This document shows positions 1,095-18,159 of a stretch of 60,917 bases of DNA, one piece after another. Position 1 is the first letter of the stretch. Every line of letters begins with the position of its first letter. Position numbers and translations under genes: made by a program. A model generated the notes under the pieces. The model was given only the letters and a program-made list of their open reading frames with translations, had not been told where the DNA came from and made no database searches. Source of the stretch: Deltaproteobacteria bacterium (GTDB taxonomy: Bacteria; Desulfobacterota; Desulfarculia; Adiutricales; Adiutricaceae); assembly GCA_031264185.1 (NCBI GenBank), contig JAISEL010000098.1:1-60917 (forward strand), in the 5' to 3' direction.

Positions 1095-1126
1095 AAACAC
1101 TGAGATAAATTTCTCAAACAATTAGC

Positions 1127-2734: not shown

Positions 2735-4249
2735 TTATTTTTGAGATGGAAAACTAGCAAGTTTAAAGCCGAAATTATTCTTTACATTGCTAATATTATC
2801 TATTTTTGATTTTAAAGTACTAGAAATAGATTTTGTTATTTTAATTATATCTAATAAATTTGTTGTTGTGATTGAATTAAAGCCATTAATAAACGCCGTT
2901 TCAACAGTGTCTTTCACAACAGCTTCCAGATCTGCTCCATTAAATCCCTCTGTAGGCTTGATTAATTGAATCAAATCAATACCACGATTCCATTTGTTCC
3001 GTTTTTTAATATGAATTTCCAGAATTTTAAGGCGTTCTTCTTCATTCGGTAAGTCAACAAAGAATATTTCATCAAATCGGCCTTTACGTAAGAATTCCGG
3101 TGGAATTGATGTAATATCATTAGCCGTACCCACGACAAAAACCGTATTGCTTTTCTCCTGCATCCAAGTTAGAAATTGTCCGAACAGACGTATTGTTACC
3201 TCATGACCGCTTCCTCCCTGTCCTACGCCAGCGAAAGCTTTCTCAATCTCATCCACCCAAAGAACACATGGACTAATGGCTTGGGAAATTGATAAGGCCC
3301 GCTGCATGTTACCTTCGCTTTCGCCGACATATTTACCTAGAAGCCGTCCGACATCTAACCTTATCAGCGGGATCTCAAATAAAGAAGCAGTAGCTTTGGC
3401 GGTGAGGCTCTTTCCGCATCCAGGCATACCAATAATCATGATGCCTTTCGGAGTATCAACACCGAATTTCAAAGCTTTGTCTAAAGAAGAAAATATTTTT
3501 CCTTTTTGTTTTAACCAGGAAATTAAATTTTCTAAACCGCCGATATTTTTGATGTTATTAGTAGTATTAACGATTTCAAGAAGACCAGATTTCTTAATAA
3601 ATTGCTCTTTTTCTTTTAAAATTAGATCTTTATCTTCTTTATTTATCATACCACCGTCTTGATATGCTAAATTTAATATTTGTCTTATATGAAATTCATG
3701 TAAACCTTTGAAAAGTAAAGAAAAATCACTAATTACATCATCTGAAATTTCTAAATTAAGTTCTTGCTTAAAATTATTGATTAAATAAATGATTTGTTGG
3801 TCATCTGGAGAAGGAATCTCAAAAATAGTTATATAGTTTTCCAGTTCATGAGGGATAACTAAAATATCAGACACTATAATTATAGAACAATAATAATCTT
3901 TCTGGTAAAGGTTAGTTTCAGAAATTCGTTTAAGCAGCGAAATAATTTCTGGATCATTTAATTGAGCATGTATATCTTTTAAAATAAGAAAAATTTCCTG
4001 TTCATAACCATAATCAGATGTAATTTTTAGAAAATTTAGCAAATCACATTCAAATATTGGGTTTTTAGTGTCAAAATCAATAATTCCATAGGCATTATTA
4101 TATTCTACAATTTTGGACTTTTGAGAAACAGCAGTTATAGCGTTTGAAATTAACTTATCTGCTAAATTAAAATCAAAATAATTAATGTAGATAATAGGAT
4201 ATAAAGCTTCTAAATATGAAACAATTTTATCTATAAGTATATTAGACAT
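2735..4249 (-). CDS. Ycf46-like AAA+ ATPase
   Basis: A 504-residue protein with a complete classic AAA+ module in its C-terminal half: Walker A GMPGCGKS (274-281), Walker B VLWVDE (329-334), sensor-1 asparagine N378 in GTAND, arginine fingers R388 and R391, and a FNGADLEAVV lid helix. The signature IGGLENLISWL before the module, together with LDVGRLLGKYVGESE, is characteristic of the Ycf46 family. The N-terminal 230 residues match the arrangement of the inactive first ATPase-like domain in that family. It lies 4 bp downstream of the 322-aa gene and 111 bp upstream of the nuclease-like gene, all on the minus strand, so co-expression is likely. It probably remodels or unfolds a partner; the glycine-zipper protein next door is the obvious candidate (inference). 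Confidence 0.85.
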   Translation of the reverse strand: MSNILIDKIVSYLEALYPIIYINYFDFNLADKLISNAITAVSQKSKIVEYNNAYGIIDFDTKNPIFECDLLNFLKITSDYGYEQEIFLILKDIHAQLNDPEIISLLKRISETNLYQKDYYCSIIIVSDILVIPHELENYITIFEIPSPDDQQIIYLINNFKQELNLEISDDVISDFSLLFKGLHEFHIRQILNLAYQDGGMINKEDKDLILKEKEQFIKKSGLLEIVNTTNNIKNIGGLENLISWLKQKGKIFSSLDKALKFGVDTPKGIMIIGMPGCGKSLTAKATASLFEIPLIRLDVGRLLGKYVGESEGNMQRALSISQAISPCVLWVDEIEKAFAGVGQGGSGHEVTIRLFGQFLTWMQEKSNTVFVVGTANDITSIPPEFLRKGRFDEIFFVDLPNEEERLKILEIHIKKRNKWNRGIDLIQLIKPTEGFNGADLEAVVKDTVETAFINGFNSITTTNLLDIIKITKSISSTLKSKIDNISNVKNNFGFKLASFPSQK

Positions 4250-4253
4250 TTAT

Positions 4254-5222
4254 TTAAACCAAAATATATTGTAAAAGGTCACTAGAATCATTGCTTTTAC
4301 AAACTAATCCATCAAAAATAGGAAAAATTTTATTGACAGTATTACTTTTATAGTCTTTATCCTTTGAAGAAGGGGTGGCTACAGTTTGAGACTCACCAAT
4401 ATGTAAAATAAGGCATTTTGTACCGCTATGTTCAATATTTTGCCAGCAAGAATCAGTATTTCCTTTAAATTCATAATAATATTTGCCTAAAATTAGCTCT
4501 CTAGATGATTCATTTCTAATAACTCTACCTATAAGTTCTAATATTTGATTATATATATATAATTTAGTCGTTTTTTGGTAATCTTCATAGTTAATATAAC
4601 TTAATTGCATTCCAATTGCAGCTATGCTTGGTATGCTATCTATAGTGTCATAAAGATAAAATTCACGGTATTGATCAATTGTTAGCATACAAAAAACAAC
4701 TAAAGGATTGTTAAAACAAACTTTCCAGAATAATTCACTAAAATTAGTCTGAATAATTAGATAATAACTTTCAGCAATATGCTTTAAAATCGCCTTTATA
4801 GAAGAAAAATCAGAGTCCTTGCCAAGTAAAATATTTACCAATTTATCATATTCAGCGAAATATTCGCTATTGATTTGATTAAAAGAAAGATTATATTCCT
4901 TATACTTAATAATTTGGTTGATTTGGTTATTATGATATATTATACTATGAATTTTTTCATCTATTTGTTCACTATTATCAGTGATATCAAAGATTTTAAC
5001 TAGTTTTTTCCCAATATTTAGATCGTCTTGTTCTGTAATTGAGCTAATTTGACTTAATTCATCATTATAACCGCGAACTTTTAGCCATCTATGTAATATT
5101 CCACCATGATACTGACTGAGAAGATCGTCAATATTAAAATTATTCCGTAAATCGTCCAGCGAACGAACAGGGTTGCCATCACAAATAAGATTAAATTTGA
5201 TTTGTTTAATTGTGTTTTCCAT
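4254..5222 (-). CDS. Hypothetical protein, partner of the Ycf46-like AAA+ ATPase
   Basis: A 322-residue, AT-rich gene that I do not recognise. It ends 4 bp before the AAA+ start and is therefore probably translated from the same message. The product is mostly predicted helix and rich in Ile, Asn, Tyr and Asp. The N-terminal 60 residues (FNLICDGNPVRSLDDLRNNF, then LLSQYHGGILHRWLKVRGY) look like a small recruitment or adaptor domain of the kind that begins with a beta strand and ends at a WL motif. The C-terminal part has a CLILHIGESQ strand. No signal peptide, membrane segment or catalytic motif is visible. Neighbourhood suggests an adaptor or sensor for the ATPase (inference). Confidence 0.75.
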   Translation of the reverse strand: MENTIKQIKFNLICDGNPVRSLDDLRNNFNIDDLLSQYHGGILHRWLKVRGYNDELSQISSITEQDDLNIGKKLVKIFDITDNSEQIDEKIHSIIYHNNQINQIIKYKEYNLSFNQINSEYFAEYDKLVNILLGKDSDFSSIKAILKHIAESYYLIIQTNFSELFWKVCFNNPLVVFCMLTIDQYREFYLYDTIDSIPSIAAIGMQLSYINYEDYQKTTKLYIYNQILELIGRVIRNESSRELILGKYYYEFKGNTDSCWQNIEHSGTKCLILHIGESQTVATPSSKDKDYKSNTVNKIFPIFDGLVCKSNDSSDLLQYILV

Positions 5223-5307
5223 AATTATTATTTCTTTAGAGTTAAAAACAGTAAATTATATCAAAAATAACGGCAACTTGCATCCCGTTTCCTGCCGACT
5301 GCTCTAC

Positions 5308-5646
5308 TTACTTTTTATAAGTAACTGTAACAGTATTAGTGATGATATTTCTGTCAATTTCATAGTCCGGATTAAATGTTGCGACAAGATGAGCTACTTT
5401 TCCAACCGCTAAACCCAAAAAACCAAGACCACCCGACAAAATGCCCGGTGCAATTGATCCGACTACCGCGCCTTTCGTAGAAACCCTTGAGCTGTAGCCG
5501 CAATTGTCGCAACACTTCTCAATTTTGGCGCAAGCTTGCATTAAATCGCCGCGATCAGCGTCCATGACAAAATCGGACCTGCTTCTGAGAAGATTTTCAA
5601 TCTCCCTCTCTGAAGCGCTGTTAAAATGTATCCTAGTTTCTGACAT
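5308..5646 (-). CDS. Small glycine-zipper protein with N-terminal CxxC knuckle
   Basis: A 112-residue protein starting at an ATG behind a strong GGGGAG site. It begins with an amphipathic helical segment, has a CCDNCGYSS zinc-knuckle-like motif at about residues 45-53, and then a Gly/Ala-rich stretch (about 57-90) that could form a membrane glycine zipper. The C-terminus is a beta-like segment ending VTVTYKK without a second CxxC. The architecture recalls the proteins at 7167-7475 and 15623-15931, which carry CxxC pairs at both ends of the zipper. It is the first gene of the AAA+ cluster. An imperfect hairpin (7-bp plus 4-bp stems) lies directly upstream of the ribosome-binding site at about 5660-5692. 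Function unknown. Confidence 0.65.
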   Translation of the reverse strand: MSETRIHFNSASEREIENLLRSRSDFVMDADRGDLMQACAKIEKCCDNCGYSSRVSTKGAVVGSIAPGILSGGLGFLGLAVGKVAHLVATFNPDYEIDRNIITNTVTVTYKK

Positions 5647-6296
5647 AGAACTAACAACTCCCCTTACAGTTCAGACGCTAAAAGTCTCTGTAAGACATAA
5701 ATTAACGCCGCTAAAACTTGTCCCATACCACTCAAAAATAAAATCTGATTTTTAATGCCGAATTCGGCTAATGAATCAGAATATTTTTCAGCTTGCTCCC
5801 CAGAGCCTCCGGCCAGATTCAAGGTGAGCTTTGAACCCGAAATTTCTGCCTGTCCGTCATTTTTTATAAGCTTACCGTAATTTGAGTATTTTTGTCAAGC
5901 CTTTTTATCTGTAAAACTCAATAAATTTTCTTACTATTCCATTTTCTGGGCTGACAGCAGATCTATCCGTAAGATTCTGTCGGATTATAGGCATTGAAAT
6001 TTTATAACCCACTGATTTTACTGGATTTTTACCAAGGCATCGCCTAAAAAAATAATCGATAAGACAAAATAGTTATTTTTACAATCTAAAAAGGTCATAT
6101 ATTTATGAAAACAATTTAAAAAGTAACTAATTTTTCTTCAACGAGCAAAGTTCCATCCAAAACCTTTTTCAGCATGACATGAGATGTCTGACGACTAGTC
6201 AGAATTTGATATGAAGTTATAGAGCCTCTCGCTCGTTATTTTTTACAGTTAAATCAAGGACAATAGATCCCAGTCAAAACAGGCCGGGAGCTTAAA
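5647..6296. other. Intergenic region between divergent gene clusters
   Basis: About 650 bp separates the leftward AAA+ cluster from the rightward XRE gene, so promoters for both should lie here. The first 50 bp hold a leader hairpin for the 112-aa gene (CTTACAG pairing with CTGTAAG, inner AGAC with GTCT). The middle is AT-rich. No gene was recognised. A regulatory region controlled by the XRE protein at 6297 is plausible but unproven. Confidence 0.45.
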
Positions 6297-6653
6297 ATGA
6301 ATCCTGCACCGCTGAATAAACAGGTCGGCCAAGCCATAGCCCGCCAGCGCAAACTTGCCAACCTGACCCAGGCCCAGGTGGCTGAACAGCTGGGAATTGA
6401 AAATGAAACTGTCTCCCGCCATGAGACTGGGGCCTCGCCTCCTAACCTGGCCCGTCTGGAGCAGTTCAGCCGCTTATTCGGCTGTCCGGTTATTCGTTTT
6501 TTTGAGGAACAGCACTCAGATGAGTCATTGGTCCTTCTTCAGACCTTAGTTGATTTGCTCCAGTCTCTGGAAACTGATGAAAAGTCCCTCTTGGTTAACT
6601 TTATAGCTAACGGAGCAAGAATGTTTAAAAACAGAAGATTTAATGCTAATTAG
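6297..6653 (+). CDS. XRE-family transcriptional regulator
   Basis: A 118-residue protein with a textbook Cro/C1-type helix-turn-helix at residues about 8-62: RQRKLANLTQAQVAEQLG (helices 1-2), the recognition turn IENETVSRHETG, and helix 4 with LARLEQFSRLFGCP. The C-terminal 50 residues form a helical tail (VLLQTLVDLLQSLETDEK), probably for dimerisation. A GGGAG-like site precedes the ATG. It lies at the divergent junction between two leftward cargo clusters and a decayed paralogue directly downstream, and probably represses island genes (inference). Its base composition is closer to the GC-rich ERF/VWA module than to the AT-rich AAA+ cluster. Confidence 0.88.
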   Translation: MNPAPLNKQVGQAIARQRKLANLTQAQVAEQLGIENETVSRHETGASPPNLARLEQFSRLFGCPVIRFFEEQHSDESLVLLQTLVDLLQSLETDEKSLLVNFIANGARMFKNRRFNAN

Positions 6654-6691
6654 CCTAAAATCATAACGCCTGCCGTTCAAGCCATAAGCAA

Positions 6692-7049
6692 GATGTCAAT
6701 TCTGCTCCGAGCATCAACGCTAAAGAACTGACCAAAAAAGTCGAAAAAGCTGTTGCCAGACAGCGTTTACGATCCGACTATGACCAGGCTATGGCGGCCA
6801 GCAAGCTGGAAATTGAACCCGAATCCGTATCGCGTTTGGAGAATGGTGTTTTCGCTCCGTCCTTGGAACGTCTGGCTGGCTCATTTCGCTTCTTTGTTCA
6901 ATTGCCCTATCGCCATTTTTTTCCATGATGAAACAGAAGATTTTGACTCCCTGGTTCTGACTTCAGCTGATATTATCAGGCCGTTAAACAAAATAAATCA
7001 TACTTTAACAATTAATTTTATTAGCGAATTTGTTCATTCCATTAATTAA
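6692..7049 (+). pseudogene. XRE-family regulator, frameshifted by a 4-bp duplication
   Basis: A degenerate paralogue of the preceding gene. The upstream frame reads KELTKKVEKAVARQRL and continues through the HTH to SVSRLENGVFAPSLERL. It then loses phase, and the downstream frame continues FASLFNCPIAIFFHDE to the stop at 7049. The break coincides with a tandem GGCT duplication (6874-6877 and 6878-6881); deleting one copy restores LERLAHFASLFNCP, matching LARLEQFSRLFGCP in the intact gene. No good start codon is visible, so the 5' end has also decayed. Tandem duplication and loss of one regulator is the simplest explanation. Confidence 0.75.
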
Positions 7050-7166
7050 TAAGTCAATAAATAGCTGCAATGGGACAGGGAGCAGGATAAGCCTGCTCCC
7101 TGTCTCTGTCGGTACTTGCTTCAGAATTTGAAGTTGTGTATGTAACTATAATAATAGGATGGTCAG

Positions 7167-7475
7167 TCAGACCCTTATAGTCCTGCCGCATCGGGCGCAG
7201 CGGTACACGCGTATAATGTGCCGGTCGGCCTTTTCGCCGATCTTCGCTCCGGTGACCAGACCGGCTAGAATTCCAGTAAGACCTCCAACCAGCCCTCCAG
7301 CCGCAGTTCCGACTCCCGGCACTGCCGAACCGACAGCCGCTCCGGTTGAAGCTCCTCTGGCAGCAAAAATGCCTGACCCCAGTATCACTCCAGTCAGACC
7401 GCCAAGAGCTTCGCCGTAGGAGGTCAGCTCAACATAGTCCCGTGTGCCGCAGACATCGCATTTAGGCTTAATCAT
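7167..7475 (-). CDS. Zinc-ribbon / glycine-zipper small protein
   Basis: A 102-residue protein with an unusual split layout: CDVC (residues 6-9) at the N-terminus and CARC (about 93-96) at the C-terminus, separated by about 65 residues of Gly/Ala-rich sequence with repeated GxxxG. The two CxxC pairs could come together to bind one zinc while the centre forms a membrane hairpin. Its ATG overlaps the stop codon of the VWA gene (ATGA), so translation is coupled and it is the last gene of the CobS-DUF3150-VWA operon. A decayed second copy lies at 15623-15931, also just after a VWA gene, so the pairing is conserved within the element. I know no described function. Confidence 0.7.
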   Translation of the reverse strand: MIKPKCDVCGTRDYVELTSYGEALGGLTGVILGSGIFAARGASTGAAVGSAVPGVGTAAGGLVGGLTGILAGLVTGAKIGEKADRHIIRVYRCARCGRTIRV

Positions 7476-9229
7476 AGTCGTCCGCCCCTTTGATTTATGG
7501 ATTTTATGGCGGTCTCCAGGAGCCGGAACAGCTTCTCCGGCAGTTCCGCCAGGCTGTACAGGACGAAGCTGCTTCCGGGCAGCAGCTCCTTTACGGCCTC
7601 GTTCCTGAGACCCAGACCGTAAATTTCAATGCCTGTACGCCTGGCCTCTTCAATGGCGGCCATGGCGTTGGGCTCCGAATCCGGCACGCCGTCAGTAACT
7701 ATAATAATGATTTTCCGCGACTCCCTAAGCCGGGAAAGTACCTGGAGAACCCGCCAGACGGCTTCGCCCAGAGGCGTGCCTCCTGACGGATACAAACTGA
7801 ACTTCCGGTGCAGCGGCTCGCCATGGCCGAGAATCGGAGCGACAGTGCAAGCGTTCGGCTCCCGCTGGCCTTTCATTTGAACTGGTTTTCCCGGAAAAGC
7901 GGTGGCGGCAGCGTTTATTCCCGGAACGCTGTGCAGGGCTTCGCACAGGGAATAAGCCGCCAGGCTCGCCAGATCTGTCATTCCGGTCATGGAGCCTGAA
8001 ATGTCAACCAGGAGGTGGACCGCCGTATCCAGGCCTGTCCTGGTTCCGGTCCGTCTGAAGATTTTAGGCTGACCGGCCAGGAGCTTATGGAGGGAGTTCG
8101 TGTCCAGCTTTCCCCTGCAGCCTGGTCGGGTTGCTCTTAAAGTCATGGTCTGAAGGAGACTTTGGAGCCTGCCTTTCAAGGCCAGGGCGGTCGGCCTGAC
8201 GCTCTCCAAATCCTGAGCCGTGAGTTCGGAAAAGTTCAGCGGTCCTTCCTGAGCGACCGCCAAGCGGTCGTCGGAACGGCCTTGACGGGCGGAATTCAGG
8301 CAGGACTCCATCATGGAATCAAAGGATACAGGCAGCTCGTCGGCTGATTTGTTGAGAAGAGACCGGACGATGCTGACAGGATCGGAGCTTCCGGCTGCTC
8401 TGTCAGGCCGGGCTGACTGGTCCGGCTGGGAGTTTCGGTCAAAGCCGCTGTCGGCAGGAGTTTCACTCGAAGACTTATGTTCGCCGGAACTTTGACCGGA
8501 AGCTTCAGGCTGACTTGACGGCTCGGCAGCGGATGCTGACGCAGTTTCCTGAGAATCGGCATCCGAATCGCCCTGACCGGCCTGACTGACATCACTGCGG
8601 CTGTTCCGGCCGGAATCAGATTCCGTCATATAGGAACTGAGAGTCCGGATTATTTCGTAAGCGTACTTTAAGGAGTCTTTTGTCTCCGGGCAGTCGTTAC
8701 GGAGAACATCAAGGATGCTGTTCAGCCTGGCAGTCAAGCCCGGAAGCCGGATCTCGACCAGGCTGGCCAGTTCCGAAACCCGTGCTCCAAGTTCAGGCAC
8801 GGACCAGCTTCTTAAAGTCAGCAGAAGCCAGCTCAGAAGATCATCTTCGGGATCAGCGGAATGACAGTCCTGGCCGAAGAATCTCCTGATGAGCCATACA
8901 AAATTCTGACGGCACCCTGGATATCTTTCGCCCAGCAGCCGTTCGACCCGCCAATCCTCAATCATGTTCCAGACGTGCTTTTCCAATGGGGTCAGCTTGA
9001 CGGACTTGGCCAGAGCGAAATCAGTTTCCCGGATATGGGCCGCTTCGTGGTCCAGATAGCCTCGGGCTAAAGACACGAGTTCCAAAGGCGAATCCAACGG
9101 AAGGGCGGGCAGGAAAATATTGCTGTCGTCGGAAAAGGCCTGCTGCCCTCCGATTACGACACTGACTCCGTACTTGCGCCCCAGAGCGCTGGCCACCAGG
9201 GGCAGCGCCCTTATGAAGTTTTCCTTCAT
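7472..9229 (-). CDS. CobT-like VWA-domain protein with HEAAH metallopeptidase-like motif
   Basis: A 585-residue protein. Residues 61-65 are HEAAH, an HExxH metal-binding signature, in a region (about 50-120) resembling the N-terminal part of CobT-like VWA proteins. Residues about 205-285 are a Ser/Asp/Glu/Gln-rich disordered linker. The C-terminal 185 residues form a von Willebrand A domain with an intact MIDAS motif, DISGSM (409-414), and later TDGVPDS. Such proteins work with MoxR/CobS-type AAA+ ATPases; here the ATPase lies upstream in the same operon. The gene ends in ATGA overlap with the zinc-ribbon zipper gene and starts 12 bp after the DUF3150 gene. Whether the HEAAH site is proteolytic is unknown. 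A decayed paralogue lies at 14885-15609. Confidence 0.82.
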   Translation of the reverse strand: MKENFIRALPLVASALGRKYGVSVVIGGQQAFSDDSNIFLPALPLDSPLELVSLARGYLDHEAAHIRETDFALAKSVKLTPLEKHVWNMIEDWRVERLLGERYPGCRQNFVWLIRRFFGQDCHSADPEDDLLSWLLLTLRSWSVPELGARVSELASLVEIRLPGLTARLNSILDVLRNDCPETKDSLKYAYEIIRTLSSYMTESDSGRNSRSDVSQAGQGDSDADSQETASASAAEPSSQPEASGQSSGEHKSSSETPADSGFDRNSQPDQSARPDRAAGSSDPVSIVRSLLNKSADELPVSFDSMMESCLNSARQGRSDDRLAVAQEGPLNFSELTAQDLESVRPTALALKGRLQSLLQTMTLRATRPGCRGKLDTNSLHKLLAGQPKIFRRTGTRTGLDTAVHLLVDISGSMTGMTDLASLAAYSLCEALHSVPGINAAATAFPGKPVQMKGQREPNACTVAPILGHGEPLHRKFSLYPSGGTPLGEAVWRVLQVLSRLRESRKIIIIVTDGVPDSEPNAMAAIEEARRTGIEIYGLGLRNEAVKELLPGSSFVLYSLAELPEKLFRLLETAIKSINQRGGRL

Positions 9230-9241
9230 TTTTCATTTCTC

Positions 9242-10255
9242 CTACCAAAGGCCGAGACTGTCCAAAGTTATGGTTTCCTCTTCGGCCTCGTCAGTTGAAT
9301 CTATGGACTGGCTGTCATCCTCGTCAAAAATGTCTGAAAGTCCTTCCGGTTGAAGACCGTCAGCTTCATAATCTTTGACTGACAGACGGGAGAGGCATTC
9401 GAGAATCTCGGATGAGCTGCCCCGGTCAATGGCCGTCCGGCTGTGTTCGAGAAGATGAGCCGGATCGCGGAGCATGGAGACCAGTCCCTGAAGGGTCAGT
9501 AAGGCCGGTCCGCTGATCAGTCCTCTCTTGGGGATGCTGCTGAGAGCCGTTCCGATCAGGTCGGCCAGAGGCGCGACTCGGGGCTCCACGAAAGAAAGGC
9601 CTGAAAGTTTGTCCTGCATGGATTTCAGCGGGGAAAGGGCCTTGTGGGTGATCTCGGTTTTTCCGGCATAGGCCTTGTTCCAGACAGTCCTGGCTTCCCT
9701 GGAAATTTCCCCGAAAAGCGTATCCCCCAGGGCTTCCACTTCCGTCAGAAGGTTCCCGCCGGTTGTCTCAGCGGCCCCGTCAGGGGTCACGACCTTATAA
9801 AACTGCCAGTTAAAACTTAGGCGTTTTCGGACGAGTTCCGCGCTGACTGTGGAAGCGGAGATGATCCGCTCCCAGCCGGGATGGGTGTCAATCCAGCCTT
9901 TGACTGCCTGGTCGTAGTTGGCCAGGAACTCGGCTTTAGCCTTCTGAAACTCATCCCTGATTAAGAGAAACTTATCGTGGACGGTTTCGGTCTTCTCTTC
10001 CGGTATGGCCCAGCCTCCAAGGAACCGCATACCTGTCTTCTCCAGCAGATTCACCGCTCTGGCCTTCAAAGCGGTGAAGATCCTAAGCTTTTCGGGATCG
10101 CAGATTTTCTTGCTCCCGAGGGACGCCAGCTCTTCCGGCGGAAGTTCCGCCTGACCGAAGTCTTCAGCCGTAAGCTTCGTCCTGGCGGTCCAGATGGCGA
10201 CATTGAGATTCACGGCGGTCAGCCGGTCCAGGATATGAATGGCAGCTTGAGTCAT
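9242..10255 (-). CDS. DUF3150 family protein
   Basis: A 337-residue protein that matches the DUF3150 family by pattern: an N-terminal LNVAIWTARTKLTAEDFG segment, SLGSKKICDPEKL, then MRFLGGWAIPEEK, followed by long helices and a strongly acidic C-terminus (SDIFDEDDSQSIDSTDEAEE). DUF3150 genes are typically found between a CobS-like ATPase and a VWA/CobT-like gene in phages and integrative elements, exactly the order here. Its start overlaps the stop of the ATPase gene by 4 bp (ATGA) and its end is 12 bp before the VWA start. No catalytic residues are apparent; a structural or adaptor role in the AAA+/VWA complex is inferred. Confidence 0.78.
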   Translation of the reverse strand: MTQAAIHILDRLTAVNLNVAIWTARTKLTAEDFGQAELPPEELASLGSKKICDPEKLRIFTALKARAVNLLEKTGMRFLGGWAIPEEKTETVHDKFLLIRDEFQKAKAEFLANYDQAVKGWIDTHPGWERIISASTVSAELVRKRLSFNWQFYKVVTPDGAAETTGGNLLTEVEALGDTLFGEISREARTVWNKAYAGKTEITHKALSPLKSMQDKLSGLSFVEPRVAPLADLIGTALSSIPKRGLISGPALLTLQGLVSMLRDPAHLLEHSRTAIDRGSSSEILECLSRLSVKDYEADGLQPEGLSDIFDEDDSQSIDSTDEAEEETITLDSLGLW

Positions 10256-11271
10256 GATTGAAGCTCCGTGGGTTGATAGTCTGTATTGAAGATCCTCTGG
10301 GCGAGTTCCTGGAGGAAAGTCCGGCTTTCGGCTGCTGCCCTAAAGCCGACCGCTCTTTCCAGGGAATGGAGAATCGGGGAAATGCCCTGGCGGCTTAAGG
10401 GCTGGAACATGACGGTCAGGCGAGCCCAGCGCAGCAGAGTCCGGGTGGAAAAGGTGATGTCCAGGACCGTATCAGGCCGCGACTCGCTGTCAGTCGAAGA
10501 GCCGACAAACAGCCGCCGGACTTCATTGGCGAACTCGACCATCCTAGTCCGGAGGTCAGAAGGCAGTTCCGGCGAAGTTTTCTCCAGAAGCCTTTGCTCG
10601 AACTCCGGCTTGGGGTAGCCGATTTCGCAGAGCCAAAATCTGTCCATGAAGGCGCAGTTCTGTCGTAAGGTCCCACGGTAAAGTCCGGTCGTATCTTCTG
10701 TTCCGTTGGTATTGGCCGTGGCCGCGAACCTGAACATGGGATTTGGGGCTATGATTTCACCGCCGTTTTCCGGAACGCAGAGCGGAGAGCCGTCCAGTAT
10801 GCTGTTAAGCCCAGCCGCAGTGGAGGGATCAAGAAGGTCTATCTCGTTCAGCAGAAACAGGCCGCCGTACTTCAGGGCCAGGGCCAGCGGCCCGTACTGA
10901 AAAAACATGCCGCCGTCCCTGACCGCCAGATGTCCGATGAGTTCAGGAAATTCCAGTCTGCTGTGACCGGTCACTTCAAAGACCGGATAGTTCAGCCTGG
11001 CGGCCAGCTCTTTGATTAAGCTCGTCTTGCCGGAGCCCAGGGGACCGAAGACATACAGCGGGTCCTTGTCGTACAGGAACCAGACAATCAGATCCCTGGC
11101 CTGCTCGTGAAACAGATAATTCCGGTTGACAGCCGGAGTGAACGGGGAAGGGGCTTCAAACCCTTTGATTTTTGTGCCGGTGGCCTGGCCGCTGAAGATG
11201 CTGCCGGCATCAAGATCGCAGGGGACGAGCTGTTCGAGAGCGGCAGCTTGGGTGTCCGAATGGGAATTCAT
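10252..11271 (-). CDS. CobS/MoxR-like AAA+ ATPase
   Basis: A 339-residue AAA+ ATPase. The start is the ATG in GGAGCAAGTATG, six residues downstream of the longest frame, because it has a good ribosome-binding site. Walker A is GPLGSGKT (76-83), Walker B LLNEID (141-146), and sensor-1 lies in FAATANTNG. The segment LEFPELIGHLAVRDGG is typical of the CobS/MoxR branch, which acts as a hexameric chaperone with a VWA partner. It heads an operon with the DUF3150, VWA and zinc-ribbon zipper genes. A terminator-like hairpin ends two bases before the ribosome-binding site, so expression is probably conditional. Despite the CobS resemblance, no cobalt-chelatase genes surround it. Confidence 0.82.
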   Translation of the reverse strand: MNSHSDTQAAALEQLVPCDLDAGSIFSGQATGTKIKGFEAPSPFTPAVNRNYLFHEQARDLIVWFLYDKDPLYVFGPLGSGKTSLIKELAARLNYPVFEVTGHSRLEFPELIGHLAVRDGGMFFQYGPLALALKYGGLFLLNEIDLLDPSTAAGLNSILDGSPLCVPENGGEIIAPNPMFRFAATANTNGTEDTTGLYRGTLRQNCAFMDRFWLCEIGYPKPEFEQRLLEKTSPELPSDLRTRMVEFANEVRRLFVGSSTDSESRPDTVLDITFSTRTLLRWARLTVMFQPLSRQGISPILHSLERAVGFRAAAESRTFLQELAQRIFNTDYQPTELQS

Positions 11272-11280
11272 ACTTGCTCC

Positions 11281-11322
11281 ATAAAAAAACATCCTGGCCC
11301 TATTGAAAGGGTCCAGGATGTT
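11281..11322 (-). promoter_or_regulatory. Leader terminator/attenuator before the CobS-like gene
   Basis: On the minus strand a 13-bp stem (arms 11288-11300 and 11309-11322, one bulged base) is followed by seven U residues that end only two bases before the GGAG ribosome-binding site of the ATPase gene. It reads as an intrinsic terminator placed in the 5' leader. Read-through would be needed to express the gene, unless the hairpin simply ends the upstream transcript and a promoter is hidden within it, for which there is hardly any space. Confidence 0.7.
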
Positions 11323-11371
11323 CGGATAGAAATAAAAAGAAAGATAGAAAGAGATCGTTCCAGTATAATTT

Positions 11372-12505
11372 TCAGTTGACAGGACTTAAACAGAGACGCT
11401 GAAACGGCTTGCCCTGTTTGAAGGAAGAAGAGACGACTTCCGAAATCAGATCATCTTCAAGATGAGCTTTCCGACTGAGGTTCTCCTGCAACAGATGCCG
11501 GTCCAAACTGCTCCGGCCTTTTTGTTCCGTAACTTTGAAGCGATAAGAATCGGCGCTGATCCACCGGCCATTGCAGCTGAGCCTGGAAGCCAGAGATTTC
11601 AGGGTGTCTTCCCGATCTTTTATCTGGTCATCCAGAGAATTCCGTCTGGCTTTCAAATCAATGAGTTCCTCAAGATCCGGGGCCAGTCCGTCACAGGAAT
11701 CTCCCTTAAACTTCGGGCAGTCATGATTGAAGCCGCAATAGTCGCAAAGAGGCGAGAACTCCTTTTGATAGGGGATATCCTCAACGCCTGGGATGCCAGC
11801 TTTAATTTCCTGTAGAATACTCCATGTACTGCTGGCTTTAGTGAGAAGCATATCCAGCATCATTCGATTTGGAAAGTAAGGCCCGAAAGCCCGGGCGTCA
11901 TTAGGAGAGACCGTGAGGACAAAACCGCTGACTGTAGAAGTATCTGGGGAATCCGGAAGATTAATGTGAAGATGCTTACTGGCCAGTTCAGGAAATGAAA
12001 CAGCGTCATCAGTTCCGCAAGCAGTAAAGACAGGTTCCGACCAGTATTCAGCCAGAAGTCCTAACTGGCCGTACAGCTGGGCTTCATGGGATTCGTAAAC
12101 GCAATCACGGCTTTTAGCCGCGCTTTTGATTTCCAGAACAGTAACGGAATTGCTGTCAGTTCCAGGGATTACTAAATCCAAGTGGGCTTTTATAGGAGCG
12201 TCTTCATGCTGAACTGCAATTTCCATCTGACGGATGAAACTGACGCCGAGATTCTCTAAAGACCTTTCGATGCCTGACTCAAGCCAATGGCCGCGAGACA
12301 GCTGCAAAAGATTCCGGAGAGACTGAGATTTTCTGTTTTCCAAAACCTTATTCAAAATTACCGTCCTGGGACAGGACATGGCTCCGGCCAGATCTGAAAG
12401 TCCCAAGTATGAACTCCGGTCGCCAAGTTCCAGGGCCGCCTGATTTCTGGAAGCCGCTTCCAGTCCTTCAGCCAGAAGAGCGAGCATTTCATTTTCACTG
12501 GGCAT
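11372..12505 (-). CDS. Cas4/AddB-like PD-(D/E)xK exonuclease with Fe-S cluster cysteines
   Basis: A 377-residue protein starting at an ATG behind AGGAG (the longest frame would add 23 residues without support). The nuclease core is visible as D110, then E125-x-K127 (LEIKS), followed by a helix with Q143 and Y145. Four cysteines, C45 before the core and C254, C257, C263 after it, have the one-plus-three arrangement of the 4Fe-4S cluster in Cas4 and AddB nucleases. The last 100 residues include a coiled-coil segment (LEELIDLKARRNSLDDQIKD). It lies just downstream of the ERF annealing gene, the usual pairing of recombinase and exonuclease in phage-type recombination, so it probably resects DNA ends for ERF-mediated annealing. 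No cas1 or cas2 or CRISPR array is present. Confidence 0.78.
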   Translation of the reverse strand: MPSENEMLALLAEGLEAASRNQAALELGDRSSYLGLSDLAGAMSCPRTVILNKVLENRKSQSLRNLLQLSRGHWLESGIERSLENLGVSFIRQMEIAVQHEDAPIKAHLDLVIPGTDSNSVTVLEIKSAAKSRDCVYESHEAQLYGQLGLLAEYWSEPVFTACGTDDAVSFPELASKHLHINLPDSPDTSTVSGFVLTVSPNDARAFGPYFPNRMMLDMLLTKASSTWSILQEIKAGIPGVEDIPYQKEFSPLCDYCGFNHDCPKFKGDSCDGLAPDLEELIDLKARRNSLDDQIKDREDTLKSLASRLSCNGRWISADSYRFKVTEQKGRSSLDRHLLQENLSRKAHLEDDLISEVVSSSFKQGKPFQRLCLSPVN

Positions 12506-12520
12506 GGTTTGCTCCTGAAA

Positions 12521-12547
12521 AAAATAATGCCCCCTGAGCAGGGGGCA
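12521..12547 (-). promoter_or_regulatory. Leader terminator/attenuator before the Cas4-like gene
   Basis: A minus-strand hairpin with a 7-bp GC-rich stem (12528-12534 with 12541-12547) and six-base loop is followed by TTATTTTTTTC, then the AGGAG ribosome-binding site and ATG of the nuclease gene. It also lies about 35 bp after the ERF stop codon, so it may double as that gene's terminator. The layout is the same as in the leaders at 11281 and 13304. Confidence 0.7.
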
Positions 12548-12580
12548 CGGCATGATAAAAGGAAAATTGTGCAAAGGTCG

Positions 12581-13285
12581 TCAGGCAGCGGTTTGAGCCG
12601 TGTCGGCATTGCGCCACCAGACATTTTTCCCCGGATTCCATCTGAATCCTGTTCCGGAGAGAATGTCTCTTTTGGGATATGTGTCGCCGACAGCAATAAT
12701 GCAAAGTGAGCCGTCATTGCTTCTGACGCTCTTATAGGTGACACCGTTAAGTTTAGGTAGCTTGTCAAGCTGGAGCTTATCGAGCGGTTCGCCTTCCGGG
12801 AGCCTGTCCCCGGAAGAACTGTTGAATGTCGAATGGCCGTCGGATTTTGAAGCTTGCTTGGAAGTCTCCTGAGCAATGGCAGTATGGCCGCAGGCCTTTT
12901 CGCCGTCATCATCCTCCACTATGATTCCGATAAGAGCCGCCATTGAATATCGCCTGGCATAAGTCATTGCGCTGCCGTAACCTTGAGGATCGAATTTTGC
13001 CAGCGGCATGACCATGAGGGAAGACTGCCATTGTCCGCTGGGGCCATGGGTCAGTTTGGTGACCAGTCCGAGATGACCGGATTCGACCGGAACCGGAAAT
13101 TGAACGACCCAAATCTCATTTTTCAAAAGAGCCTCTCTCGAAGCGGTGATAACCGAATTGAGCGTGGCATACCGGCTTTTTGCAAAAGGATTAGATGCGT
13201 CTTTGATGGCCGGATTGATTTCCGCCTGGACCTTAAGCATCGCGCCTGCCAGCTCCTTAACGTCGTCGGAACAGAACATTTCCAT
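12581..13285 (-). CDS. ERF-family single-strand annealing recombinase
   Basis: A 234-residue protein. The start is the ATG 9 bp after GGAGGT; a longer frame upstream would cover a terminator hairpin and is rejected. The N-terminal 130 residues carry the ERF pattern: NPFAKSRYATLNSVITA, then DPQGYGSAMTYARRYSM and the acidic DDDGEKA. ERF proteins (as in phage P22) form rings on single-stranded DNA and anneal homologous strands. The C-terminal 60 residues after a Ser-rich linker carry a GFRWNPGKNVWWR motif, like the small modules found at the ends of several phage DNA-metabolism proteins. It lies first in the ERF-nuclease pair, and its long upstream region carries hairpins. Confidence 0.85.
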   Translation of the reverse strand: MEMFCSDDVKELAGAMLKVQAEINPAIKDASNPFAKSRYATLNSVITASREALLKNEIWVVQFPVPVESGHLGLVTKLTHGPSGQWQSSLMVMPLAKFDPQGYGSAMTYARRYSMAALIGIIVEDDDGEKACGHTAIAQETSKQASKSDGHSTFNSSSGDRLPEGEPLDKLQLDKLPKLNGVTYKSVRSNDGSLCIIAVGDTYPKRDILSGTGFRWNPGKNVWWRNADTAQTAA

Positions 13286-13303
13286 AATGGGAACACCTCC
13301 AAT

Positions 13304-13336
13304 AAAAAAAACCGCACCGTGCCTGAGCACGTGCGG
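13304..13336 (-). promoter_or_regulatory. Leader terminator/attenuator before the ERF gene
   Basis: A minus-strand hairpin (arms 13312-13322 and 13327-13336, loop of four, one bulged base) is followed by eight U residues and then, three bases later, the GGAGG ribosome-binding site. No gene lies upstream for about 700 bp in this direction, so it cannot be explained as the terminator of a preceding gene. This makes a true attenuator or antitermination site likely. Confidence 0.72.
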
Positions 13337-13385
13337 CCTTAAAGCTTTGATCAAAATTATAATATATATGTGAAATTTTTTGATC

Positions 13386-13451
13386 GGCACTCGTTTTACG
13401 AGTGCCTGCCGAATCGATTTATCGATTGAAAAATCAGTAGTTTTACGACTG
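13386..13451. repeat. Cluster of three hairpins with matching AT loops
   Basis: Three inverted repeats follow one another: 13386-13406 (8-bp stem GGCACTCG, loop TTTTA), 13412-13427 (6-bp stem AATCGA, loop TTTA) and 13435-13451 (six-base arms, five paired, loop TTTTA). The stems differ but the loops are the same, and spacing is 5-7 bases. The cluster lies upstream of the ERF leader. It could be a protein-binding array, an origin-like structure or a structured leader RNA; none is proven. Confidence 0.6.
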
Positions 13452-14032
13452 CGTTCTGAATCAACAAGCCGGTTTGAAACGCGCCGTGTTCTATAGTTTC
13501 AAATTTTAATCGCCTTATACATGTTTCTTAAGTTTTTGGTCACTTAGATTTCTTCATAGGTAAGAGAAAGGTCAATAAATCCTCGGCCTTTCTCTTAAGA
13601 GTGCCCGTAAAATTTTCTCTGCATTCACTGATTTGCCGGACAGCCTTCGGGTTTCAACTCCCCTAGCACTGTCTATGTTTTGTTTTATAAGCACTCCTGG
13701 ATAAATCGTCTCTTGAACTCCATCCGGCTTTGATAAAAATAAAAATTTTTGATAAATTCAATCTTAATGAAAAACGGGCCGATATGAGTTCAAGGAAATG
13801 GGGGATGCGAATGACCGACGACCTTCGGCTGAACTTGAATCCTTCTTGAGTTATTCGATTAGCTGTGGATCAAAAAATTTAATTTACACCATGGATTTAT
13901 TAGGTTAAACTGAAGAAGTGAATGACGGTCGCGTGAAAAGTCCGTTTTTTTGATAAATAAATCTATAACGATTTTAAATTATTAATCTTTTTAATATAAG
14001 TTCTAAAAAATATAATTTTTATTAAAAACTTT
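13452..14032. other. AT-rich intergenic region between ERF module and hicAB
   Basis: No coding frame with a credible start or family match. It holds the divergent upstream regions of the ERF gene (leftward) and hicA (rightward). The last 100 bp are very AT-rich, which fits a promoter for hicAB, but no clear consensus -35/-10 pair was identified. Confidence 0.4.
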
Positions 14033-14287
14033 ATGAAAAGTAGCCATAAAAAAACATTAAAAGCTATTTTTGCCGAACCGCTGGCAGGTCCAATCAATTG
14101 GAACGATATTGAAGCTTTATTTTTATCAGTAGGGGTTCGAATTTCAAATAGGAAAGGATCAAGGGTAAGTTTTATTTTTAATAATCATAAGGCGATATTC
14201 CACAGGCCGCACCCATCAAAAGAAACTAAAAAGTACCAGATTAAAGATGCCAGAATTTTTCTGGAAAAAATAGGGGTGATACCATGA
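14033..14287 (+). CDS. hicA: HicA-like mRNA interferase toxin
   Basis: An 84-residue basic protein with the HicA fold pattern: INWNDIEALFLSVGVRI (first helix), GSRVSFIF (strands), FHRPHPSKE and a C-terminal helix ending FLEKIGVIP. It matches the subgroup in which the histidine lies in the FHRPHP turn. HicA toxins cut mRNA and are neutralised by HicB, encoded next: the stop overlaps the hicB start in ATGA. No strong ribosome-binding site precedes this ATG, which may keep toxin expression low. The gene is AT-rich in contrast to hicB. Confidence 0.88.
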   Translation: MKSSHKKTLKAIFAEPLAGPINWNDIEALFLSVGVRISNRKGSRVSFIFNNHKAIFHRPHPSKETKKYQIKDARIFLEKIGVIP

Positions 14288-14625
14288 AGAAAGCCATGAC
14301 TCACAAAGGCTACTCCGCTTCAATTGAATACAGCGATGAGGATGCCTGCTTGGTCGGTCATATCATTGGAATCAATGATATCGTGGGCTTTCACGGCGAT
14401 TCAGTTTCCGAAATCAAGCAGGCTTTTATTGATGCTGTTGACGATTATCTGGAAACCTGTGATGAAGAAGGCCTTGAGCCGGATATTCCGTTCAATGGTC
14501 GGATCGAACTCCGTGTGCCTCCTGATTTTCATGCTCGTCTTGTTTCCTTTGCCAAGGCTAAAGACAAAAGCGTGGACAATCTGGTAATTGATTCTATCAA
14601 TCAGTTGATGGCAAGCAATTATTAG
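14284..14625 (+). CDS. hicB: HicB antitoxin
   Basis: A 113-residue antitoxin. The N-terminal part has the degenerate RNase H-like HicB fold (YSASIEYSDEDACLVGHI, then VGFHGDSVSEIKQAF and DAVDDYLE). The C-terminal 40 residues form a ribbon-helix-helix (GRIELRVPPDFHARLVSFAK) that would bind the operator and autoregulate the pair. It overlaps hicA by 4 bp. Such pairs stabilise mobile elements, which fits its place in the island. A strong terminator hairpin follows at 14709-14736. Confidence 0.92.
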   Translation: MKKAMTHKGYSASIEYSDEDACLVGHIIGINDIVGFHGDSVSEIKQAFIDAVDDYLETCDEEGLEPDIPFNGRIELRVPPDFHARLVSFAKAKDKSVDNLVIDSINQLMASNY

Positions 14626-14708
14626 TGTAAAAAAAAACTTTAATAGCTAAATTTACTATTTCGTTTTAATAAGTTGTCTTAAAGACTATCCATAAGGCAT
14701 TCAACTCA

Positions 14709-14736
14709 AAGCCGATCCTGTTCTCAGGGTCGGCTT
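14709..14736 (+). terminator. Terminator hairpin after hicAB
   Basis: A 12-bp stem (AAGCCGATCCTG with its partner, one G-U pair) and a four-base loop, followed by GTTT. It is the only strong hairpin after hicB and separates it from the decayed VWA gene. Confidence 0.65.
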
Positions 14737-14884
14737 GTTTCTGAAATTTCCTGAAAATACCCAAACTGACAATTTCGATCATTTTTTCGCCCAAATAAGT
14801 TGTTCAAAAATTAATGGTCTTTTTCAGTGAGGCTTTAATTAGGTGCTCCCTTGTCTTTTGACGTGCGCTTACGAAGACAACCTG

Positions 14885-15609
14885 CTTAAAGTCCGGCCAA
14901 CGGCGACACTTTTAAAGCCAAGCTCCAAAAACGTCTACGGTGGTCAACGGTTAACCAGGGCGGCGGATCAAGCTATGGGTGGCGGTTGGATTCTCAGAGT
15001 GTCACCAGCTCTTTCAAGATTCACCCAAGATTTTTAAAAGCCAAAAAGAGCAGGTTTGGTTTGAGTTTGGCTGTTCATCTGCTCATTGATACTTCCGGTT
15101 CCATGAACAGCCAAATCGAACAGGCCAGCTTGACGGCTTATTCCCTGTGTGACGCTCTGGCCGGGGTTCCTGGAATCAATGTGGCCGCTACGGCTTTTCC
15201 TGGAGGTCAGCTGAGAAACACCGGACGCGGAGTTGATCACTGGGCCACTGTCTCTCCTCTGCTCAAACATGGCCAAGCCATGCACCGACGGTTCCAACTC
15301 TTCGCTGCCGGGACAACTCCGCTAGCCCAGGCTCTCTGGTGGGTTATCCAGGATATGGTTCCCTTAAGTGAATCCCGGAAGGTCATTTTTATAGTAACTG
15401 ATGGTGTGCCCGACTCGGATGAAGAGGCCATGGCGGCTATCCGGGAAGGACGGAATCTCGGTCTGGAAATCTACGGTTTAGGTTTGGGCACAGATTCAGT
15501 CAAAAATCTTTTGCCTGGCAGAAGCGTAATAATCTCCAACTTTTTGGAACTGCCTCAGAAGCTATTTTGGCTTTTGGGACAGGTTTTAACTGTAACTATA
15601 ACTAATTAA
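14885..15609 (+). pseudogene. Decayed second copy of the VWA-domain gene
   Basis: From 14986 a frame encodes an almost complete VWA domain with MIDAS motif DTSGSM and TDGVPDS, very close to the C-terminal domain of the intact protein at 7472-9229 (shared SLCDALAGVPGINVAATAFPG pattern, GLEIYGLGL, LELPQKLF). Upstream, in another frame, VRPTATLLK and TRAADQ match the region just before the VWA domain, so the copy is 5'-truncated and frameshifted and lacks the HEAAH part. It lies in the opposite orientation to the intact copy and is again followed by a glycine-zipper gene, so a whole operon end was duplicated or acquired twice. A translated VWA fragment from 14986 cannot be excluded. Confidence 0.75.
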
Positions 15610-15622
15610 GGATGATTGAGTC

Positions 15623-15931
15623 ATGATAAAACTAAAATACATTTAATGTGGCACAAGTAACTATGTGGATTTGACTTCATGTGGTCAATCGATCGGTGGA
15701 GTTGTCGGTGGACTTGCGGGAGCTAGGGTATTGACTACCAGCGATGTCGCCGTAGGAGCGACTTTGGGGTCGGTTGTCCCTGTCGTTGGAAACGTTGCTG
15801 GCGGAGTCCTGGGTGGATTGGTGGGAGCAATCACCGGTTTGCTGGCTGGGTCAAAGGTAGGGGAGGAATTTGACAAGCACGTCATCAAGGTCTACAAGTG
15901 TAGGAAATACGGCCAAATAATTCGGGTTTGA
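15623..15931 (+). pseudogene. Decayed second copy of the zinc-ribbon glycine-zipper gene
   Basis: An ATG at 15623 opens MIKLKYI, then a TAA, then CGTSNYVDLTSCG, which aligns codon for codon with MIKPKCDVCGTRDYVELTSYG of the intact gene at 7167-7475. The stop replaces the eighth codon and the first cysteine is now tyrosine. The remainder is intact, with the glycine zipper and a C-terminal end matching HVIKVYKCRKYGQIIRV; the final CxxC has also lost its second cysteine. A GTG at 15665 could start a shortened protein, but without a zinc site. It follows the decayed VWA gene by 13 bp, preserving the original gene order. Confidence 0.8.
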
Positions 15932-16164
15932 CCGTAGTTTAATTATTCTCCGGTTTTATTCATTTGTTTATATCATCCAGCTCCCTTAAGGGGGTGGATG
16001 AACGAATAAGTTATATTTTTTGCTTATCGTTATTCAGAAAAGTAATTCTATTTAATATATAAAAGCATCTTTTAAATAAAAATTAATTGCTTATTCAGAG
16101 CTTTTGAGGAATTATTATAGGTCCATCTCCTTATCGGGAGTTGAATAACTTAATGCCTAGGTAC
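15932..16164. other. Intergenic region with hairpin
   Basis: No coding frame. A hairpin at about 15985-16012 pairs CATCCA with TGGATG and CTCCC with GGGGG around a TTAA loop; it has no U-tract after it. The rest is AT-rich. Confidence 0.4.
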
Positions 16165-16195
16165 AAAAAAGGCGGTCATGCAATATGACCGCCTT
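16165..16195 (-). terminator. Terminator of the AlpA-like gene
   Basis: An 11-bp perfect stem (AAGGCGGTCAT at 16169-16179 with 16185-16195) around a five-base loop. On the minus strand it is followed by six U residues, so it should end transcription coming from the AlpA-like gene at 16340-16537. Confidence 0.8.
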
Positions 16196-16339
16196 AAAAC
16201 TATATTTTGTTTTGAGAGAATCTGAAGCTGGAGGTCATAAACGTTTTAACCTTATCTCTCAGAAGTACATAATAAATAACAAACAAGTTTAAATATAGTT
16301 TAACTTTAATATCTAAGTGAATTAATTAACATCTTCATT

Positions 16340-16537
16340 TTATTTACTTTCAATATAAGCTAATATATCTGCTTTTTTCCATCTAGTTATCCTTTTACCT
16401 AATTTTATTGGTTTTGGGAATCCATCCAATCTTTTGGCCCAATTCCAAACTGTTGATTTTGCTATTCCAAAAATTGACGCCACTTGGACGACTGTTAAAA
16501 GATCTGAAAATCCTTCTAATGATAGTGGAGCTTTCAT
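16340..16537 (-). CDS. AlpA-family excisionase/regulator
   Basis: A 65-residue protein with the AlpA winged-helix pattern: LLTVVQVASIFGIAKSTVWNW (HTH), DGFPKPIKLGKRITRW and WKKADILAYIES. A good AGGAG site precedes the ATG. AlpA-type proteins act as excisionases or activate integrase expression in P4-like elements. Here the gene lies directly downstream of the integrase on the same strand, next to the tRNA attachment site. With the integrase broken, it may no longer have a partner in this copy. Confidence 0.88.
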   Translation of the reverse strand: MKAPLSLEGFSDLLTVVQVASIFGIAKSTVWNWAKRLDGFPKPIKLGKRITRWKKADILAYIESK

Positions 16538-16723
16538 GAGTTATACTCCTGAAAAAAATTTTCAGGCTAAAACTCGACTTCCAGCTATTTTGAGAATGGT
16601 AGAGTATTTTTGGGGCCTTGTCAACAAAAATCTATTTTTTTTTCTTGCCGTGCCAGAGACGTAAAAAAATAAATATTATTGGCCTTTGAAAACTAAGTTA
16701 TTCAATATAATAATATTTTAATA
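16538..16723. other. Short AT-rich gap between integrase and AlpA gene
   Basis: About 186 bp, AT-rich with poly-A and poly-T runs. It holds the upstream region of the AlpA-like gene. No gene is visible. Confidence 0.4.
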
Positions 16724-17923
16724 TCATTTTAACATGTTATTATGTTTTAAATTGCATAGATAATCAGCCCATTGTTGCATCATTAGACGTCTTTCAGGTA
16801 AATAATCGGCATAATTATAAGCAGCTCTGACGCTGTTCCTCTCCCCATGAGCCAGTTGCCGTTCTATCCAATCTCAATTGTAGCCCAATTCATTTAGTAA
16901 AGTTGAGGCAATCGACCTAAATCCATGGACAGTCATTTCTTCTTTGGAATAACCCAAACGTCGTAATCCGGCGAGCAGAGTCATATCTGAAATAGGTCTA
17001 TTATTAGTCCTTAAACTGGAAAAAAGATATCTGTCGTTACCGGTATAAGGTTTAAGTTCTGTAATAATATCAACAACTTGTGTGGCTAAAGGAACTATAT
17101 GTACTTGTTTCATTTTCATTTTATCAGCAGGTATACGCCATTCAGCCTGTTCAAGATTAATTTCCCTCCATTCAGCGTGACGCAGTTCTCCTGGTCGGAC
17201 GAAAACAAAAGGAGCTAACTTTAGGGCCGCTCTGACAATAAGATTCCCGCTGCTGTAAGCGTCAATAGCCCTCATAAGCCCACCGACCTCATTAGGGTCG
17301 GTCAGGCTGGCCATATGGTTATGAATCGCCGGACGCAGAGCACCTCTCAAGTCAGCAGAGATGTCATGATTGGCCCGTCCAGTGGCGATGGAGTATCTGA
17401 AAATCTGTCCACAATATTGGAGACATCGGTGAGCCGTAACCACAGCTCCTCTATCTTCGACTTTTCTAAGGACCCCCAATAGCTCCTGGGCACTGATTTC
17501 ATCAATGGGCTTGCTTGACAAAAATGGAAGCAATTCTTGTTCGACCCGACCCCATATCCGGCTGGAATAACTTTCCTTCTTACCCTCTTTTTTCCTCTCA
17601 AACCACTCTCTGGCCACGGTCTCAAAGGAATTAAGGGCTAAATGAGAGGTAGCTTTTTTAAGAATTTGTTTCTGTGCGGACGGGTCGATTCCAGCTTTTA
17701 GAGATCGTCTAGCGTCAATGAGAAGGTTCCGGGCCTCTTTTAATGAAATTAGGGGGTAGGTCCCAAAAGTCAGGGTAAGCCGTTTTCCTTGGAATCGGTA
17801 GTCGAAACGCCAAGATTTCAGTCCCTTTGGACTTGCATATAAATACAGACCATCTGAATCAGTAAACTTACAGGCTTTTTCTGGAGCTTTCAAATTTTTA
17901 ACAAATAGGTCGGTTAAGCTCAT
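16724..17923 (-). pseudogene. P4-type tyrosine integrase with one in-frame TGA
   Basis: A frame of 400 codons interrupted by a single TGA at 16874-16876 (codon 350). Before it, the protein has the N-terminal arm-binding domain (LYLYASPKGLKSWRFDYR, LTFGTYPLISLKEAR), the core and the catalytic residues R in FVRPGELRH and HxxR in HGFRS. After it, without further damage, the same frame continues DWIERQLAHGERN and VRAAYNYADYLPERR, which contains the catalytic tyrosine. A CGA-to-TGA transition would explain the stop. Truncation removes the nucleophile, so the product should be inactive unless the TGA is read through. It lies 160 bp from the 3' end of tRNA-Glu, the usual integration target. Confidence 0.9.
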
Positions 17924-18083
17924 GACGGTATTTCCCTTTGAGAAAATCAGATACCGTCGTTTATACCGTCAATTGTGCTAGATGTCAAGTGATTTTAGAA
18001 GACTTTATGAGACAAGGAAAAGGCCGGAAACCATTGATTTTATTAGGTTTTTAGTCCTTATCAGACCTGGTGAAACAATGAAC

Positions 18084-18159
18084 TGGTAGTCCCAAGGGGA
18101 CTCGAACCCCTGTTTTCGCCGTGAGAGGGCGGTGTCCTGGGCCACTAGACGATGGGACC
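18084..18159 (-). tRNA. tRNA-Glu (CTC), integration site of the island
   Basis: The minus-strand sequence begins GGTCCCATCGTCTAGTGG and ends with the TTCGAGTCCCC T-arm, matching acceptor stem and an encoded CCA. The anticodon loop CTCTCAC gives anticodon CTC. The acceptor stem pairs over seven bases with one G-U pair; the first anticodon-stem pair is C-A instead of C-G. The 3' end faces the integrase, so the island to the left was probably inserted here, leaving a direct repeat of the tRNA 3' end at its far end. I did not find that repeat between 1 and 16,700. Confidence 0.93.

Follow-up and report, generated by a model that had tools for sequence, protein, structure and literature searches.

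The ERF module and its surroundings

On its minus strand, the window (the whole stretch of 60,917 nucleotides analysed here, contig JAISEL010000098.1) carries a module of the mobile-element type, in which the gene for an ERF single-strand annealing protein is followed by those for a Cas4/RecE-like nuclease, a CobS-like MoxR ATPase, a DUF3150 protein and a CobT-like VWA protein, in that order (Table 1). The DUF3150 gene overlaps CobS, the CobT-like gene starts 12 nt past DUF3150, and neither possesses a leader hairpin; hairpins are therefore found at every uncoupled gene of the module and at none of the coupled ones.

Further upstream, an integrase gene (16874-17923) adjoins a tRNA gene (18087-18159). 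An attachment-site repeat was sought at the tRNA edge and not found, nor were the ends of the element found within positions 1-18087. The composition of this region is uneven, the module (7-13.4 kb) having 54% GC and being flanked by stretches of 36% and 40%. On the opposite strand to the module, a C-terminal CobT/VWA fragment (14986-15609, plus strand) with 49% identity to the module CobT lies beside a HicAB pair (14033-14625). A strong canonical terminator of 11 pairs followed by a U-run is located at 16169-16195 on the minus strand, 3' of a 65-aa gene (16340-16537) whose product looks AlpA-like by eye and whose Shine-Dalgarno sequence (SD) comes after a U-run without a hairpin.

Table 1. 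Coordinates of the module genes, their leader elements and related features (window positions unless a locus is named).
Feature	Position	Strand	Remarks
ERF single-strand annealing protein gene, 234 aa	12581..13285	-	Pfam ERF 1e-27, PHROG Erf-like; ATG 13285
Cas4/RecE-like exonuclease gene, 377 aa	11372..12505	-	Weak PDDEXK; PHROG CRISPR/Cas-associated, RecE-like and Cas4-domain families; ATG 12505
CobS-like MoxR AAA+ ATPase gene, 339 aa	10252..11271	-	AAA_5 and CbbQ_C; ATG 11271
DUF3150 gene, coupled to CobS by overlap, without leader hairpin	9242..10255	-	DUF3150 9e-96
CobT-like VWA gene, last of the coupled block	7472..9229	-	CobT and VWA domains
ERF leader, terminator-like hairpin and U8	13304..13336 (stem 13336-13312, U8 13311-13304)	-	Score 42.6
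ERF SD, GGAGG	13296..13300	-	3 nt (ATT) past the U-tract
Cas4-like leader, terminator-like hairpin and U-rich tail with U7	12518..12548 (stem 12548-12527, tail 12526-12518)	-	Score 28.1
Cas4-like gene SD, AGGAG	12512..12516 (GGAG 12515-12512, CA between tail and GGAG)	-	Direct reading
CobS leader, terminator-like hairpin and U7	11283..11320 (stem 11320-11290, U7 11289-11283)	-	Score 36.0
CobS SD, GGAG	11277..11280	-	AT between U7 and GGAG
Block ATATATATTA before ERF, resembling a promoter or operator	13360..13369	-	Core TATATTA conserved in relatives
Inverted repeat GGCACTCGTAAAACGAGTGCC	13386..13406	-	Stem of the second copy (C155) changed on both sides, still palindromic
Predicted bistable leaders at most genes of the bet/exo/CobS/DUF3150/VWA region	L104 23791-49812 (pRA1), L106 14675-23865 (R997), L121-L124

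Three adjacent terminator-like leaders

The leaders of the ERF, Cas4-like and CobS-like genes share a common layout, in which a GC-rich hairpin and 7-8 U are followed, after 2-3 nt, by GGAG(G). A preliminary description of the DNA had proposed this arrangement, and direct reading together with folding bears it out: three adjacent leaders each place a terminator-like hairpin against the ribosome-binding site. In every case a single hairpin is the dominant predicted fold, with local energies of -20.5 kcal/mol for ERF (z -2.8), -17.5 kcal/mol for the Cas4-like gene (z -1.9) and -24.7 kcal/mol for the CobS-like gene (z -5.2), and all three show the GC-rich hairpin directly followed by 6-8 U that characterizes an intrinsic (Rho-independent) terminator. 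Conversely, a similar leader hairpin that had been suggested for the 112-aa gene at 5308 does not hold up as a fourth case. It reaches only -11.1 kcal/mol (z -1.3), 19 of 200 shuffles fold equally well, and it has no U-tract; what the leader of this gene contains (5600-5740, minus strand) is a weak hairpin adjoining GGGGAG.

Hairpins of -12 kcal/mol or better occur at 24-34% of genes in these genomes, and because hairpin energy alone is so common, a terminator score of the d'Aubenton type was used in its place (own implementation, threshold 0). By this measure, 3 of the 38 window genes match, namely exactly ERF, Cas4-like and CobS-like. Samples of the same genome (400 kb) and of the relative Smac51 gave 1 match among 176 genes and 2 among 250, respectively. 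In a wider test, in which the gap to the SD could be up to 22 nt and a third genome was added, a terminator-scored hairpin was found at 26 of 43 homologous ERF, Cas4 and CobS leaders (13/15 for Cas4, 8/13 for ERF and 5/15 for CobS) compared with 12 of 638 background genes from three genomes, where background starts came from a simple ORF and SD caller rather than curated annotation and genome samples were of 400 kb. The corresponding Fisher p of about 1e-26 is overstated, since the scored relatives are not independent of one another. Chance or compositional bias as the source of the hairpins is refuted by these background samples; given three consecutive genes and conservation in two families as well, such an artefact has next to no probability.

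Conservation in related modules

Relatives carrying the module were found by profile search of genome contigs, a single-protein search having given none. The genome itself contains another copy (C155) with a 94% identical ERF and the same leaders; its ERF stem shows a few differences and still folds. Related modules are also present in the family members G002, G009 and G016, in Deltaproteobacteria bacterium Smac51 (CP026657.1), which has three such loci, and, at a greater distance within the phylum, in another family (loci L155-L164 and L171), here called Desulfovibrio-like by our own assignment. Gene order is mostly kept, and hairpin leaders recur at ERF and Cas4 and often at CobS, although the CobS leaders of relatives also often lack one. 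The ERF layout in particular reappears in C155, G002, G009, the Smac51 b locus and the Desulfovibrio-like loci, and in the last of these DUF3150 is coupled to CobS across about 9 nt. The same leader layout is thus present in related elements, as the preliminary description had asked to be examined.

The stem sequences have turned over between families while the pairs have been kept. Across relatives, the Cas4 hairpins show 92% paired cells and changes on both sides, and the ERF hairpins 95.5% paired cells, with a covariation score matched by 4 of 500 shuffles; compensatory and G-U-preserving changes are found in both. The earlier view that these leaders represent a repeated design, and not a duplication, is upheld by this recurrence with altered sequences in the second copy, the family members and the distant family. 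G-U pairs are frequent in the stems when read on the sense strand, which indicates RNA rather than DNA. An element acting at the DNA level, either a palindrome bound by a protein or a hairpin that forms in the single strand during transfer, might be expected of genes that handle single-stranded DNA in a module found on conjugative elements. Yet the retention of sense-strand G-U pairs, an orientation and position that follow the SD, and the lack of any common sequence for a protein to read make such an element very improbable.

The U-tract is less constant. Seventeen of the 43 homologous leaders score below the terminator threshold, among them that of the G002 Cas4-like gene, whose hairpin has no U-tract, and that of ERF at the Smac51 a locus, where the U-tract is broken. 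In the Desulfovibrio-like loci the U-tract is often only about 4 U long. Some relatives therefore keep the hairpin while losing a good U-tract, so that conservation is stronger for the hairpin than for the terminator as a whole. Sequence comparison shows genuine structures with U-rich flanks that are under selection and go with the downstream gene, and it is very likely that the hairpin structure has a selected function. This selective maintenance of the layout in related bacteria makes it probable that every one of the three genes has an RNA gate to itself.

Two of the related loci show further peculiarities. The G002 Cas4-like gene (L041 5428-7175) is interrupted by about 1.1 kb and carries a frameshift. 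The third ERF copy of Smac51 (L070 9504-9858) lacks its N-terminal part and lies directly 3' of a tmRNA gene, which suggests insertion there.

The hairpins accompany the downstream gene

The distance from hairpin to downstream SD is 3-12 nt (sd 2.4), whereas that from the upstream stop codon to the hairpin ranges from 17 to several hundred nt, one of the long values (L159) depending on an uncertain ERF start. At two Desulfovibrio-like loci, L155 and L171, genes have been inserted between Cas4 and CobS, and the hairpin remains with CobS. Upstream of ERF, the TATATTA core is present in 12 of 14 regions and as one-base variants in the other 2, mostly some 80-110 nt before the start codon; this block is likely to be a promoter or operator. 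No gene on the same strand ends there, HicA starting at 14033 on the other strand, in agreement with the earlier remark that ERF has no upstream gene to terminate. The ERF hairpin would therefore sit between a likely promoter and its gene. Together, the constant spacing to the downstream SD and the location of the ERF hairpin 3' of the promoter-like block imply that the hairpins belong to the downstream genes, and the claim that each is its gene's own leader stands. More repeats similar to GGCACTCGTAAAACGAGTGCC occur just upstream of that inverted repeat.

Predicted switch-type leaders in Bet/RecT-type modules

A version of this module in which Bet or RecT substitutes for ERF is carried by the IncA plasmid pRA1, by R997, which we typed as SXT/R391-type from its gene set, and by other plasmids. 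The bet/exo/CobS/DUF3150/VWA regions of pRA1 and R997 are syntenic with the module of the window, CobS being 43-44% identical. In pRA1, the leader z lies below -2 for 79% of 34 genes at 73.7-100 kb against 7% of 91 genes elsewhere, and in R997 for 77% of 13 module genes against 14% of 51 others. As in the ERF modules, a strong structured leader thus precedes nearly every gene of this region. Unlike the ERF-type leaders, however, those of pRA1 and R997 are predicted to hide or expose the SD through a bistable fold, in which a hairpin imitating the SD/start region is followed by an anti-SD arm and then by the SD itself. In the predicted minimum-energy fold the arm hides the SD, and when the SD is held open, the arm usually re-pairs with the imitation.

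At least 5 nt change partner in 56 of 97 module genes, whereas among the remaining genes of pRA1 and R997 this holds for 13 of 110 (p 2e-12). The comparison was not blind: module genes were chosen by their location, several loci had initially been spotted by eye, and pRA1 is related to R997 by descent. Such a switch was found in 0 of 34 ERF-type leaders and in most of ten Cas4 and CobS leaders from other Desulfobacterota modules without ERF. For the Bet/RecT-type leaders, modelling a consensus fold with covariance gave no consensus pairs and was dropped; because sequence alignment had misregistered the variable loops, the switch was instead scored leader by leader. No Rfam family was found for the pRA1, R997 and pALVIN02 stretches, where permissive searches gave sub-threshold matches only, and no description of switch-type leaders was found in the full text of open papers, subscription papers lying outside the scope of the search.

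Proposed per-gene attenuation and its alternatives

The best reading of the ERF-type leaders, for which the chances are about even, is that each hairpin and U-tract acts as an attenuator, or partial terminator, within the 5' leader of the gene that it precedes. An RNA polymerase setting out from the ERF promoter would meet an intrinsic-type terminator before the ERF ribosome-binding site and further ones before Cas4 and then before CobS, and each of these uncoupled genes would be made only from those polymerases that read through; DUF3150 and CobT, being translationally coupled to CobS, would hence need no gate. In the first 8 nt past the stem, 62% of residues are T and 15% A, whereas the same place in other genes has 21-32% T and 24-29% A. 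A flank so specifically rich in U favours termination over a generic A/U-rich unstructured spacer. Attenuation also fits the position of the ERF hairpin, which comes after the conserved block and has no preceding gene to terminate, and the restriction of hairpins within the module to uncoupled genes. It is given in terms of partial terminators because of the leaders that fall below the score and the hairpins that lack a good U-tract. That the leader hairpins terminate in vivo is, on this evidence, somewhat probable; that read-through is regulated is the weaker proposition and must be called doubtful.

Termination does not require the tight spacing to the SD. A steady 3-12 nt gap would be at home in an element for 5' stability and translational insulation, its resemblance to a terminator being incidental: after initiation or RNA cleavage, the hairpin would shield the mRNA 5' end and hold the SD within an unpaired, U-rich spacer immediately beyond the 30S footprint. 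The greater conservation of the hairpin relative to the U-tract would agree with such a role, as would the fact that the SD of ERF-type leaders is never in a switch. It is the main rival to attenuation and is considered rather unlikely, as the flank is specifically U and not A/U, and the window copies, with their 7-8 U and scores of 28-43, have the textbook form of a terminator. Their canonical appearance might equally be taken to mean that the hairpins are ordinary terminators, which stop the preceding transcript or shield the genes against transcription entering from elsewhere and are passed by unregulated, leaky read-through or bypassed by a promoter inside the preceding gene; a terminator insulating element genes from host transcription is reported for Tn916 (PMC11658703). 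However, the hairpins follow the downstream SD and not the upstream stop, ERF has no gene before it, and structures ending 2-3 nt before the SD leave no room for a promoter behind them, which together render this explanation improbable.

The preliminary description had invoked either processive antitermination or per-gene attenuation. The layout fits the latter best, and for the former neither an antiterminator nor a shared site was found: no NusG/RfaH-like or other antiterminator Pfam domain was detected among the island proteins tested, and inspection by eye of the sequence preceding ERF in 14 relatives showed no nut/boxA-like element in common. A boxA-like string was visible in only 1 of the 14 ERF leaders (L155), and such sites were dropped as a shared signal. 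Rfam gave no match above the gathering score for the window and relatives, a permissive search of the focal region yielding sub-threshold matches only. Simple or processively controlled attenuators need neither an antiterminator fold nor a leader peptide. Regulated, processive antitermination in this module is no more than possible.

Implications and comparison with known systems

Taken across both types of module, it can tentatively be proposed that, in conjugative and integrative elements, RNA leaders rebuilt in each lineage control the individual genes of the recombination/CobS/DUF3150/CobT module. ERF modules would use gates of the terminator type, and Bet/RecT modules (IncA, SXT/R391-type and others) a bistable SD-mimic/anti-SD/SD translation switch before most genes. 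If true, this would constitute a regulon-wide layer of RNA gating in mobile elements, with transfer, excision or a similar shared event presumably opening the gates. Constant expression of a mobile element's recombination and exonuclease genes is likely to be harmful, and a gate per gene rather than per operon, which is unusual, would explain how the genes of an element can be kept quiet yet be released together. IncA and SXT/R391-type elements spread drug resistance, and the two-state leaders predicted there would be a testable regulatory layer, found neither in Rfam nor in the open papers searched.

Terminators that restrain the genes of an integrated element have a parallel in Tn916, where, in the portion of the report available, they act with the processive antiterminator canT and are not described as fused gene by gene to ribosome-binding sites (PMC11658703). 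Unlike in Tn916, no canT-like element was found here, and the gene set is unrelated. In a transcription attenuator of a bacterial 5' leader, a terminator lies just before the controlled gene. In E. coli, transcripts that terminate prematurely within 5' UTRs have been reported (PMC7815308). The leaders described here resemble such attenuators in that an intrinsic-type hairpin and U-tract lie between a promoter, here a likely one, and the SD of the controlled gene. They differ in having no visible antiterminator fold, leader peptide or ligand domain, and in being placed on three consecutive genes, each packed to within 2-3 nt of the SD.
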